Source of the DNA: Victivallales bacterium
Lineage (GTDB): Bacteria; Verrucomicrobiota; Lentisphaeria; Oligosphaerales; Oligosphaeraceae
Direction of reading: 5' to 3'
NCBI GenBank assembly: GCA_017431185.1
Contig: JAFRLP010000380.1
Span: forward strand, 1-6,246
DNA: 6,246 nt
Made by a program: the position numbers and the translations under genes. The notes beneath the pieces are model-generated. The model made no database searches, was not told the origin of the DNA, and saw nothing but the letters and a program-made list of their open reading frames with translations. Each line of letters begins with the position of its first letter. The first letter of the stretch is position 1. Of this stretch, positions 2,314 through 6,246 are shown in pieces.

Positions 2314-2320
2314 CCTCCTT
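2314..2320 (-). promoter_or_regulatory. Shine-Dalgarno site of the glycosidase-like gene
   Basis: AAGGAGG on the minus strand begins inside the TAA stop codon of the prepilin gene and ends 4 nt before the ATG at 2309. The overlap of stop codon and ribosome site suggests translational coupling of the two genes and fixes the start of the downstream one. Confidence 0.8.
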
Positions 2321-3101
2321 ATTTTTGCAGGCAGTAGTAGATGTCGGTTGCGGGAGAAAAATCCGGCAGCAAACTGTTGACATTGGCCCCCTTCCTCCGC
2401 AAAGTCTCGATATGCCCGTCCACAAACTGCATATTGCAGCCATTGTTGTGACGGTCAGTCGGCACGCCCATCCCGTTCGATGAGGTTGGAGTCTTGGTGA
2501 CGATTCCCAAATTATACATCCCTAGCCCATCTGGTCCGATGGAGTCGCAGATAAGCCACTTGGCGCTGGGGGACTTGACTTGCAGGAAGCGAGGCCACTG
2601 CTTGCTTGAGGCTGTTCGCGGATTGACAAATACGGTGGCGTTCGTCAACCCGTAGTCCGTGTTGCCATAGTTGAGCAGCGCTGCCTGTTTCTTGGTATGC
2701 GGCTGGCTGGGGCAGAGCAGAACCCGGAAGTCGCCATTCGCCGTTTCTCCACCAGTCCACAGGTTCAGCTGTTTGCCGTAGTTCAGCAGCATATACCAGG
2801 ATGACCTGCGGTTGTTGTCATGCCCAAAACTCTGCTCCGTCGTCAGGGTCATGTCAAAATGGGTGGCACACTGCGTGACAATAAAGTCATTGTTGTCATC
2901 CCCATAAAGCCGAAAGGCGAAGGAGACGGTTTTCAGGTTGTTGACGCAGGCAATGGCCCGTGCCTTCTCCCGCGCCTTGCTTAACGCAGGCAACAGCATC
3001 GAAGCAAGCACGGCGATTATGGCTATCACGACCAATAATTCAATCAGCGTGAATAGACTACGCCTCGTCATCCCCATGGTGTGACACAAAACAAAGTTCA
3101 T
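2319..3101 (-). CDS. Prepilin-like (type II secretion pseudopilin-like) protein with H-X9-DG C-terminal motif
   Basis: This 260-residue protein has the N-terminal class III (prepilin peptidase) signal: basic MTRRSL, then [17 protein letters not shown] at 17-33 with Glu21 as the +5 glutamate, followed by [15 protein letters not shown]. It would be cleaved and methylated by a PilD-type peptidase and held in the inner membrane by this helix. Residue -1 is Leu16, not the usual Gly. The C-terminal half has [10 protein letters not shown] near 125-134 and the H-X9-DG motif (His218, Asp228-Gly229), typical of the expanded prepilin-like families of Lentisphaerota and Planctomycetota. I chose the ATG at 3101 because AAGGAG lies 6 nt upstream; an in-frame ATG at 3119 has no ribosome site. 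It is first in a two-gene operon with the secreted glycosidase-like protein, which suggests a role in exporting, anchoring or presenting that protein. That role is inferred; it is unlikely to be a major structural pilin. Confidence 0.9.
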
Positions 3102-3107
3102 TTTGTT

Positions 3108-3113
3108 CTCCTT
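3108..3113 (-). promoter_or_regulatory. Shine-Dalgarno site that decides the prepilin start
   Basis: AAGGAG on the minus strand sits 6 nt before the ATG at 3101. The longer in-frame start at 3119 is preceded by GTTAACCCACA, with no purine-rich site, so the shorter protein is preferred. Confidence 0.75.
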
Positions 3114-3146
3114 TTGCATTGTGGGTTAACCTTGTCTTTAGTTTTT

Positions 3147-3229: not shown

Positions 3230-3251
3230 AATCATGCAAGAGTGCAGAATG

Positions 3252-3269
3252 TTTTCCGGAGGCGGAAAA
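3252..3269 (+). promoter_or_regulatory. Hairpin over the ribosome binding site and start codon of the AraC-family gene
   Basis: TTTTCCG (3252-3258) and CGGAAAA (3263-3269) form a perfect 7-bp stem around the 4-nt loop GAGG. The Shine-Dalgarno GGAGG (3258-3262) is the loop plus its closing base, and the first base of the ATG is in the stem. Two further G-U pairs would extend it through the whole start codon. The strong ribosome site with a 6-nt spacer supports ATG 3269 over the in-frame GTG at 3242. Confidence 0.5.
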
Positions 3270-4228
3270 TGGGCAGGACAGATCAAAAGCCGGTGGTGGT
3301 GCAGCCAAACAACACCGTGACCATCTATTCTCCAGGATATGAGCGCAAGCTACAGCGGAACCGCGCGGAGACCTGGTATGACGTCTATCCATTTGCATCG
3401 GTGCTTTGGGCTCATGCGCTCACCGACGTCACACATCATGGACAGTGGCAGTTGACCAGGGTGAACTATCACCAGATCGCCCTGGAATTGGAGTTGGAGA
3501 AAGAGGTGGTTTACATCCAGAACGACGAGAAGATGATTCTCTCTCCTGGCGAACTGCATTTGACCAGACCTGGCGACACAGTGATGATGCGTTCCGCCAG
3601 CGGCAGGCCGTCCCGACAATTGCAATTGCTGATTTCCGGCAACAATACCCAGGGCATTCTGGACTCATTGAAAATCACCCGGGGAATGAAGTTCAGTTTC
3701 GAGCCATCGGACGCCGCGTTCTTTCGCAGCCGCATGGAGTCCTTCTTCCCGCTGCTGCAAAAGAAGGACCTGGCGGATGCCTGGACAAATTCGCTGCGGT
3801 GCAACGAACTGCTGCTGTTCCTGGCGGACTGCATCAGGCGTAAACAGCATGAGACGGAGAAATATCCCCTGCCGGTCATGATGCTGCTGAAAATCATAAA
3901 CACGGCGTATGACCAGCATCACTCCATCCAGGAACTGGCACAGCGCTGTGGAGTCAGCGACCGTTCCGTGTTCCGCCTGTTCAAAAAATACATCGGGGTC
4001 ACGCCCCATACCTACCATCAGCGTCTGCTCATGGAAAAGGCCCGATACCTGCTGAAGAACAGCAATGACTCCATCAAGGAAATCGCCGGGAAACTTGGCT
4101 TTCTCAACGCCTTCTATTTTTCCTCGACCTTCTCCCGTTTCACGGGCCTCTCCCCCTCCGATTATCGGAAAACCGAGCCGCAGAGCGTCCAGCGTTTTGT
4201 TGTCAAGGGGGATAACTGTCTAAAATAG
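3269..4228 (+). CDS. AraC-family transcriptional regulator
   Basis: This 319-residue protein has the standard AraC layout. Residues about 30-125 are a cupin-like sensor region (PGELHLTRPGDTVMM at 93-107 fits the cupin beta-strand pattern). Residues about 205-302 are the double helix-turn-helix DNA-binding domain. The first helix-turn-helix is SIQELAQRCGVSDRSVFRLF (219-238); the second begins SIKEIAGKLGF (268-278) and ends in the family signature FSRFTGLSPSDYR (288-300). It is transcribed divergently from the prepilin/glycosidase operon with a shared promoter region, so control of that operon, probably in response to a sugar or glycan fragment bound by the sensor domain, is the natural hypothesis. 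The start is set by GGAGG 6 nt upstream of ATG 3269. Family assignment is firm; ligand and target are inferred. Confidence 0.93.
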   Translation: MGRTDQKPVVVQPNNTVTIYSPGYERKLQRNRAETWYDVYPFASVLWAHALTDVTHHGQWQLTRVNYHQIALELELEKEVVYIQNDEKMILSPGELHLTRPGDTVMMRSASGRPSRQLQLLISGNNTQGILDSLKITRGMKFSFEPSDAAFFRSRMESFFPLLQKKDLADAWTNSLRCNELLLFLADCIRRKQHETEKYPLPVMMLLKIINTAYDQHHSIQELAQRCGVSDRSVFRLFKKYIGVTPHTYHQRLLMEKARYLLKNSNDSIKEIAGKLGFLNAFYFSSTFSRFTGLSPSDYRKTEPQSVQRFVVKGDNCLK

Positions 4229-5597: not shown

Positions 5598-5674
5598 GTG
5601 CCAGTAGCTCAGTTGGATAGAGCGCCTGCCTCCGGAGCAGGAGGTCGTGGGTTCGAATCCCGCCCGGCACGCCA
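5598..5674 (+). tRNA. tRNA-Arg (anticodon CCG)
   Basis: A full 77-nt cloverleaf is present. The acceptor stem is GTGCCAG with CCGGCAC; the D arm is GCTC/GAGC; the anticodon stem CCTGC/GCAGG encloses the loop CTCCGGA with anticodon CCG at 5632-5634, reading the arginine codon CGG. The variable loop is AGGTC, the T arm GTGGG-TTCGAAT-CCCGC, and CCA is encoded at 5672-5674. The only irregularity is an A-C mismatch at acceptor pair 6-67. A single-gene unit is implied by its own promoter and the terminator 8 bp downstream. Confidence 0.97.
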
Positions 5675-5682
5675 ATTTACCC

Positions 5683-5715
5683 AGCCCGTCACAAACCAGT
5701 GGCGGGCTTTTTCTT
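5683..5715 (+). terminator. Intrinsic terminator of tRNA-Arg
   Basis: AGCCCGTCAC (5683-5692) pairs along all 10 bp, with one G-U pair, to GTGGCGGGCT (5699-5708) across a 6-nt loop. The strand then continues TTTTCTT. This is a textbook rho-independent terminator on the plus strand. Confidence 0.92.
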
Positions 5716-5801
5716 GCCTTGTCTTCAGCCCCCCAGTCTCTTTCAATCCGCGAGGAGTGGCCTCGCGGGCAGGTTTGGAGACTCACTCCTGCTACGTCAG
5801 A
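5716..5801. other. Junction sequence between tRNA terminator and truncated gene, with a GC-rich hairpin
   Basis: No gene is recognisable in these 86 bases. They contain a perfect 8-bp inverted repeat, CCGCGAGG (5748-5755) and CCTCGCGG (5761-5768), around the loop AGTGG, with no T tract on either side. Next to it GGAG/CTCC (5777-5780 and 5786-5789) can form a second small hairpin. The region joins the tRNA unit to the broken DUF1156 gene, so it may be the scar of a deletion, insertion or recombination event. Confidence 0.5.
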
Positions 5802-5855
5802 CTCCAGCGGCAATGCCACCTCGATGAGTTTCCAAGGGAATTTGATATTCGACAT
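5802..5855 (-). pseudogene. 5' remnant of a DUF1156-type (adenine-specific DNA methylase family) gene
   Basis: The ATG at 5855 starts an 18-residue piece, MSNIKFPWKLIEVALPLE, that matches the well-known beginning of DUF1156 proteins (KKLIEVALPLE, normally followed by AINKxSAREKSIRHGHPS and then LHLWWARRPLA). After the Glu at 5802-5804 the similarity stops; the open frame continues through unrelated sequence and the reverse of the tRNA to a TGA or TAG-type stop near 5580, giving a meaningless 91-residue product. A good AAGGAG lies 8 nt upstream and the preceding gene stops 2 bp away, so this was once the next gene of an operon. DUF1156 proteins are large, zinc-ribbon-containing putative adenine methylases often found in defence islands. 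The family call rests on a short but characteristic segment. Confidence 0.6.
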
Positions 5856-5857
5856 GG

Positions 5858-6246
5858 CTACTGCTCCTTGACCGTTGGCTGACCCAGATCCAGGACTTCC
5901 CAATGGCCGCCCTTGTCCGGCCCCACCCGGCGAAGACGACCGAAAGAAACCAGTTTGGAAATATGCTCCTTGACAGTATCTTCTCTGATTGCCAAAAAAG
6001 CGGCTAATTCTTTTCTGGTGATTTTAGGATTTTGCCGCATAGCAATAAGTATCTTTAGCGCCGTTTTCTGGGGGGCATCCGCCGTTTTCTGGGGGGTGCC
6101 CTCCGTTTTCTGGGGGGTGCCCTCCGTTTTCAGGGGGGTGCCCTCCGTTTTCTGGGGGGTGCCCTCCGTTTTCTGGGGGGTGCCCTCCGTTTTCTGGGGG
6201 GTGCCCTCCGTTTTCTGGGGGGTGCCCTCCGTTTTCTGGGGGGTGC
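5858..6246 (-). CDS. C-terminal part of a winged-helix protein, AlbA_2/RecG-like ATP-binding type, with heptapeptide repeat linker
   Basis: The minus-strand frame is open from the right edge to TAG at 5858-5860: 128 residues are visible and the N-terminus is outside the window. The first part is a tandem array of EGTPQKT heptapeptides, the last one degenerate (ADAPQKT). Then ALKILIAMRQNPKITRKELA begins a winged helix, continuing through a recognition-helix region EDTVKEHISKL and ending with GRLRRVGPDKGGHWEVL. That ending is characteristic of the C-terminal domain of AlbA_2 (AAA_4, Schlafen-like) or RecG-like ATP-binding proteins, which often have Thr/Gln/Lys-rich TTQKTTQK-like linkers at this spot. 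These proteins are transcription- or defence-associated DNA/RNA-binding factors. The stop is 2 bp from the truncated DUF1156 start, so the two formed an operon. An ATG at 6040 is internal, without a ribosome site, and is not the start. Confidence 0.75.
   Translation of the reverse strand, partial: TPQKTEGTPQKTEGTPQKTEGTPQKTEGTPQKTEGTPLKTEGTPQKTEGTPQKTADAPQKTALKILIAMRQNPKITRKELAAFLAIREDTVKEHISKLVSFGRLRRVGPDKGGHWEVLDLGQPTVKEQ
5864..5869 (-). promoter_or_regulatory. Shine-Dalgarno site of the truncated DUF1156 gene
   Basis: AAGGAG, inside the last codons of the winged-helix gene, lies 8 nt before the ATG at 5855. Its presence shows that the 18-codon remnant is a true gene start and not a chance match. 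Confidence 0.6.
6061..6246 (-). repeat. In-frame 21-bp tandem repeat (coding minisatellite)
   Basis: Eight complete 21-bp units plus 18 bases of a ninth run to the window edge; the array continues outside. Seven inner units and the partial one are identical except for one substitution at 6132 (Gln to Leu, giving EGTPLKT). The unit nearest the winged helix (6061-6081) is diverged and reads ADAPQKT. The unit length is a multiple of three, so copy-number changes alter linker length without shifting the frame. Each unit carries a run of six G (plus strand). Confidence 0.97.

Follow-up and report, generated by a model that had tools for sequence, protein, structure and literature searches.

The window, by which we mean the whole stretch of 6246 bases analysed here, is apparently a complete contig. 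It breaks off inside a tandem array at the cut end of a probable Schlafen-type gene, the neighbours of which are present on one side only. The features on which the analysis centres are the following:

5598..5674, plus strand: tRNA-Arg (CCG), beside the 3' end of the Schlafen gene
5858..6244, minus strand: C-terminal 128 residues of a probable Schlafen AlbA_2 - GHKL ATPase - winged helix-turn-helix (wHTH) protein, its body inferred from homologues and its N-terminal part lying beyond the contig end
5894..5923, minus strand: wing motif GPDKGGHWEV, conserved among close relatives in contrast to the stretch preceding it
5894..6067, minus strand: winged helix-turn-helix (HTH_24; Pfam PF13412, E=5.5e-07), nearest to the wHTH of P0001, P0003 and P0004 (class A)
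6056..6244, minus strand: 21-bp coding tandem array of nine units forming the linker (TPQKTEG x5, TPLKTEG, TPQKTEG, TPQKTAD, APQKTAL), open at the contig end

Elsewhere, the minus strand of the window contains a contig-cut open frame of 769 residues without a Pfam match at E 0.001 (3-2309) and a gene for a prepilin-like protein with an N-terminal methylation motif and a DUF1559-type match (2319-3119), from which an AraC-type regulator gene (HTH_18; 3242-4228, plus strand) diverges. The tRNA-Arg (CCG) adjoins an MFS gene, as it does in G034 (L038 2853-2929) and G036 (L040 1298-1374), and its far side differs in all three genomes. Matches to the MFS neighbour at E 1e-60 occur in 28 of the 47 genomes of the order of G001, the best of them in G034 (68% identity). 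In this genome, the MFS gene and the tRNA are kept, the next gene is dnaG-like instead of the Schlafen gene, and the window wHTH has no match at E 0.001; in G036, the tRNA is followed by yet another gene. Three different genes beyond the same tRNA suggest an insertion site, and the synteny with G034, a single syntenic genome, indicates that the window Schlafen gene may have been acquired beside the tRNA-Arg. No near DNA match to window positions 5680-6246 was found in plasmids, and the exact degenerate array pattern yielded 0 matches in viral contigs.

Tandem Repeats Finder identifies a single tandem array within the window, located at 6061-6246, with a period of 21, 8.9 copies, 96% matches and a score of 337. 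Its minus-strand translation, starting from 6244, opens with a TPQKT that is cut by the contig end and continues with four copies of EGTPQKT, one EGTPLKT, two more EGTPQKT and an ADAPQKT, after which the wHTH begins. The preliminary description had counted at least eight EGTPQKT units; the 21-bp array is real, but this count is slightly generous, as six units are exact, one carries a Q-to-L change, one is cut and one, at the edge, has diverged. The inner seven units share 98.6% DNA identity, their single difference being the Q-to-L change, yet 2048 codings are possible for one unit peptide. The unit pattern occurs seven times in the window (up to three mismatches) versus a maximum of 0 in 200 dinucleotide-preserving shuffles. 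The near identity of the inner units and the decay of the edge unit thus hold as first described, and the recent expansion proposed on that basis, or else a homogenisation, is likely because the units are so alike. The placement of a coding linker before a winged helix is borne out as well, the PF13412 match being in frame.

The unit is free of stop codons in six of six frames, as had been noted. The suggestion that this protects the gene when the array slips is weakened by L004 (4001-5381), the Schlafen gene of which is frameshifted in the body and again, by one inserted base, within the array, after which a stop codon is reached ahead of the wHTH; this is either a broken gene or an assembly error. 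The G-rich strand of the window array folds better than shuffles (z -3.17; opposite strand z 2.89). As the arrays of L001 and L004 gave z values of 0.90 and 1.68, only one of the four strands folded beats shuffles, and hairpins were rejected as a general cause of slippage.

Domain architecture and neighbourhood of the homologues

A homologue search with the array and wHTH as query gave 306 hits. Many of the best 120 of these have the order AlbA_2 (Schlafen), HATPase_c_4 (GHKL), repeat linker and wHTH; Fic proteins are also present. The best full-length homologue, P0001 (E 9.8e-36, 65% identity across 92% of the array and wHTH), carries PF04326, PF13749 and PF13412. The AlbA_2 and GHKL domains are found in the homologues P0001 and L002 and are lost beyond the contig end in the window. 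The window fragment has the C-terminal wHTH after a linker that is expected of a Schlafen AlbA_2 - GHKL - wHTH effector, and its wHTH contains the motif RRVGPDKGGHWEV. As the window lacks a body of its own, its membership rests on the linker and the wHTH, and the lost body would presumably have been of the Schlafen AlbA_2 and GHKL type.

The carboxylates aligned with the SLFN13 triad are E38 (52 of 52), E43 (50 of 52) and E/D76 (45 of 52), counted over rows with a letter and with the SLFN13 residue numbers taken from the accessible part of PMC5862951 and the offset to chain 5yd0 set by hand. The GHKL residues E327, N331, H335, G395 and G397 occur in 54 of 54 rows, and so do the wing residues G552, G557 and W559 (P0001 numbering) in the 54 aligned rows. 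In the AlphaFold2 model of P0001, residues 439-502 have a pLDDT <50, while most of the body exceeds 85 and most of the wHTH exceeds 90. By analogy with this model, the linker encoded by the window array is predicted to be disordered; 98% of its residues are P, G, S, T, N, Q, D, E, K, R or A.

The close relatives L001-L003 are Victivallales MAGs from ruminants, and L004 is from an uncultured bacterium. Upstream of the Schlafen gene of L001, and overlapping it, lies an HmaA-type helicase gene (1899.7 bits); the search for HmaB/HmaC covered part of the other open frames of at least 150 residues on this contig. Hma stands for helicase, methylase and ATPase in the accessible part of PMC8565338, and the portion of PMC12839542 at hand treats it as a BREX-related system. 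A Fic gene also lies upstream in L001, and a Fic protein gene (L026 3066-4037) precedes the HmaA-type helicase and Schlafen genes in a Victivallales MAG. The neighbours include an AbiEi-type gene in L004 (downstream) and a DUF3990 gene in L002, and no core defence system was seen beside the Schlafen gene in either. In Pseudoalteromonas plasmids (L057-L060, L063), the gene is located between hsdS and hsdR of a type I restriction-modification operon in five of the five cases found, and in the fetched E. coli records it adjoins dinD.

Repetitive linkers and their length

Of the 120 homologues listed from 2181 hits, 20 are close and 100 farther, with some near-copies among the farther rows; 18 and 82 of them, respectively, have internally repetitive linkers (p<0.01, 200 shuffles). 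Repetitiveness is not significant in P0072 and P0129 of the close set and in 18 of the 100 farther linkers. A period of 7 residues fits best in 17 of the 18 repetitive close homologues, and in the farther set the best period is mostly 7, 12 or 11 residues (28, 26 and 22 of 82, respectively). In close relatives, the corresponding position is occupied by 21-bp arrays, each built from its own units. L001 contains five identical units before its contig ends inside the array, the units of L002 and L003 are quite different and less regular, and L004 has a PQKT-type unit; the core CCCCAGAAAACGG is common to the window, L001 and L004.

Eight more distant relatives (38-42% identity) come from a viral collection. 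In six of them, an in-frame DNA array precedes the terminal wHTH or, in L021, extends to the contig end. The unit sizes are 12, 21, 24 or 36 bp, and the units are unrelated between lineages; within an array, they match to 93-97% in L018, L021 and L024 and to 80-87% in L020, L022 and L023. In L019, a 24-bp array of ~12.6 copies lies ~380 bases past the stop of the matched Schlafen frame. As a control, the remaining 55.5 kb of the eight viral-collection loci contain one array with a score of at least 100, which is that of L019. No array was detected in L025, L056 and L062 at the thresholds used, and a megablast search for near DNA matches of L018, L024, L020 and L022 in E. coli found none. The arrays of L018 (6816-7147), L021 (6768-7079) and L024 (6563-6670) consist of 24-bp (ELSTEQEP-like) and 12-bp (SHEL) units, and the 4-residue SHEL repeat recalls the TAEL of HsdS. 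A short array of score >=40 is present in six of the eight plasmid copies fetched (of 18 hits), whereas the seven E. coli copies fetched (of 8) all have the same 2.9 repeat copies, across three distinct DNA versions of the gene.

The preliminary description had expected linker length to vary and had proposed a search of homologues for such variation, and this expectation holds in part. Among 18 close pairs chosen by eye, tail length differs in 12, but it is equal in the other six, and array size was the same in seven of seven E. coli relatives; no population with variable unit number was seen. Some pairs in which the wHTH has hardly changed differ by an integral number of units. The linkers of P0024 and P0052 are two units apart (plus four residues at the end), those of P0051 and P0056 one unit, those of P0001 and P0003 two units, and those of P0153/P0161 and P0149/P0160 each one 5-residue unit. 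In several other close pairs, the length differences are larger or uneven blocks rather than clean single units. That linker spacing tunes activity, as suggested earlier, is plausible.

Histories of the body and the winged helix

Sequence comparison indicates that the body and the wHTH have different histories in the relatives. Nearly identical bodies are combined with dissimilar wHTH cores in P0003/P0125 (98% and 33% identity, respectively), P0001/P0037 (96% and 42%) and P0004/P0129 (97% and 23%), and concordant pairs exist as well, e.g. P0051/P0056 (99% and 94%); P0002 and P0122 stand outside this comparison. P0121 and P0122 are 99.5% identical in the body and have unrelated linkers, the wHTH of P0122 being missing. 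Between the DNA of L002 and L004 (60-column bins), identity is 70-96% in the body versus 28-56% in the linker and wHTH, rising to 80% at the wing codons. On the body tree, each of the wHTH classes A-E, which were assigned by eye, is rejected as a single clade (AU p 2.6e-07, 0.00037, 1.7e-202, 0.011 and 8e-06, respectively), and nine changes are needed for six classes; P0122 has no class in this tree or in the repeat-type match described below.

The repeat type next to the wHTH fits the wHTH class in 20 of 22 cases, including all 13 from classes A and B, the tags of which are the least circular, those for classes C-F having been written after the linkers were seen. Repeat type and class are mismatched in P0121 and P0129, and in P0004 and P0128 the linker start was not found, their first two tags coming from the body and being uncounted. 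The linkers thus look layered, with class-matching repeats beside the wHTH and other types upstream. In P0231, for example, four GIEN-type (C-type) repeats are followed by eight SEKT-type (B-type) and three PQKT-type (A-type) repeats and then by a class A wHTH. Since adjacent sequence tends to be co-inherited, the match of repeat type and class locates the border of the mosaic and leaves its mechanism aside. The wHTH-proximal part of the linker tracks the wHTH with a partial r of 0.71 in the close set (n=17) and 0.72 in the farther set (n=85), although the relatedness of the rows makes the counts of the permutation test too favourable. Rows that did not match the wing pattern were dropped from these sets, namely 15 of 100 farther rows and, of 18 close rows, P0125, which is half of the most striking pair above. 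The body-proximal part tracks the body in the farther set (partial r 0.65); in the close set, no clear tracking of the body is seen (partial r 0.20 with the body vs. 0.28 with the wHTH). As judged from these comparisons, the linker and wHTH seem to be replaced as a module, a mosaicism that is seen in the relatives only, as the window has no body.

Shuffling between paralogues within a genome was considered and finds little sign in four MAGs, as G001, G002 and G004 each hold one close copy (broken in G004) and G003 holds one plus an extra wHTH match. This extra match to the P0001 wHTH region (45% identity) is located at the start of contig 706 of G003 (4-195; L013) and may be what remains of another copy truncated there. 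Fic proteins share the QKT-rich linker and a similar wHTH with the GPDKGGHWEV-type wing and have a Fic effector body. Two or more [QE]K[TSI] motifs precede the wHTH in 31 of the 43 Fic proteins and 40 of the 47 Schlafen proteins, versus 0 of 90 control pieces, in a set of 91 proteins chosen from the 120 listed (P0099 dropped) that is biased towards QKT linkers because the query contained the array. A module shared between Fic and Schlafen bodies was not upheld, given this query and starred branches that force only one label change.

Interpretation and comparison with known systems

Beyond the preliminary description, the homologues are Schlafen-type predicted defence effectors in which repetitive linkers are common and the linker and wHTH seem to be replaced as a module. 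We consider it probable that the array encodes a repeat-built disordered tether from the Schlafen body to the wHTH, which is renewed by slippage or unequal recombination and is a site of recognition-module exchange. The pairs of equal length and the two mismatches of type and class lower this probability slightly. Such a tether would join the conserved body, with its RNase-like AlbA_2 domain and GHKL ATPase, to the C-terminal winged helix. Its unit number would shift in frame through replication slippage or unequal recombination, processes that may also keep the units alike. The wHTH-proximal repeats and the wHTH would be swapped as a module while the body stays nearly constant, repeats of other types would remain upstream, and recombination between repeats could import new tips. 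Going by what is known of the family, the wHTH most likely binds DNA, either that of an invader or its own operator, and upon this trigger the GHKL switch would relay the signal to the predicted RNase. The linker would supply reach and tolerate new tips, allowing a fresh wHTH to be hung on an old body.

If this is correct, the DNA-reading tip of a widespread class of predicted anti-phage RNases is replaced as a module at a repeat linker that renews itself, which bears on how such effectors acquire new triggers. In the relatives, tether length and repeat type often vary, and the type tends to change together with the tip carried. Moreover, short-read assemblies can truncate Schlafen genes at contig ends, as in the window, L001 and L021, which hides their tips.

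A serious alternative, which we hold to be less than probable, is that the array is a neutral minisatellite. A little-constrained disordered linker would gather in-frame duplications by slippage, its length and type would be functionless, and the incongruence of body and wHTH would reflect ordinary homologous recombination in a horizontally moving gene. The units are indeed unrelated between lineages and mostly polar, and the folding of the G-rich window strand (z -3.17) may favour slippage. However, highly diverged relatives from several phyla are again repetitive at this position, and the repeat type adjoining the wHTH goes with the wHTH class, although co-inheritance of adjacent sequence may explain the latter.

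Tentatively, and with more doubt, the tether reading can be extended to a linker that captures new tips and keeps, in layers, a record of past sensor exchanges. Repeats and wHTH arriving together would recombine into the resident repeats and at the conserved wing, remnants of former tips would be oldest beside the body and newest beside the wHTH, and the repeats would be kept because they enable capture.

It is unlikely that unit number is a switch that sets linker length and thereby tunes or phase-varies the effector, as would be suggested by the whole-unit differences between some close pairs and the precedent of the TAEL repeats in type IC HsdS (accessible part of PMC3874165). The predicted disorder of the P0001 linker argues against it. 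A rough chain estimate with assumed constants gives an rms reach of 3.8-6.4 nm for 44-126 residues, so that single units should matter little. The constant array size in the E. coli relatives and the lack of any population seen with variable numbers also speak against such a switch.

Two helical turns of DNA span 21 bp, and this period, together with the core common to the window, L001 and L004, could point to units that act as binding sites at the DNA level, for instance of the protein's own wHTH in an iteron-like autoregulation. We regard this as very improbable, since other arrays have periods of 12, 24 and 36 bp, the units elsewhere are unrelated, and the doubled DNA pattern was found in one of 387 genomes of the phylum, solely as the L001 array (G002-G004 lie outside this sample). 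The same count led us to reject a repeat dispersed through genomes. Finally, the contigs of the window, L001 and L021 all stop within an array, but an assembly artefact is hardly credible given the arrays that end inside longer contigs (L002, L004), the nine units of P0001 (longest contig 16,074) and those in complete E. coli and plasmid records; the concern that the array might be such an artefact is thereby answered, and it is more likely that the repeat caused the contig to end there.

Among known proteins, the mammalian Schlafen RNases such as SLFN13 (PMC5862951, accessible part; 5yd0) have an AlbA-type core with which the three-carboxylate site is aligned, the sequence match being limited to the AlbA part. 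The best structural matches of the P0001 model, and the best sequence matches of the alignment, are DIP2311 (3lmm) and the RecG-related 2kyy, where 3lmm is named as uncharacterised in the sequence listing and the overall superposition is poor (TM ~0.35). Closer to the homologues described here are the Schlafen-family RNases fused to a minimal histidine kinase and a wHTH, which have been linked to BREX and BREX-related loci in the accessible part of PMC12839542. They have the same AlbA_2 - GHKL - wHTH order as the homologues, among which L001 has a defence neighbour, the HmaA-type helicase. That part of the source makes no mention of tandem-repeat linkers or of an exchange of linker and wHTH, the term "tandem repeat" occurring 0 times in its main text, and among the matches listed from open-licence papers, repeat linkers or wHTH exchange in bacterial Schlafens are undescribed.

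Type IC HsdS offers a parallel of a different kind. Its two target-recognition domains and helical connectors have no counterpart in P0001, which carries a single wHTH and a disordered linker and lacks any such Pfam match, and the window fragment likewise lacks an HsdS-type Pfam match. Unlike its helical connector, in which TAEL repeats set the base spacing (PMC3874165, accessible part), the linker found here is predicted to be disordered, and a sequence relation between the two was not found. Still, as far as the same source extends, both have short in-frame connector repeats that vary by unequal crossing-over and recognition domains that are exchanged by recombination. If the proposed tether is real, these effectors would change their tips in a manner resembling that of HsdS, though by different means.
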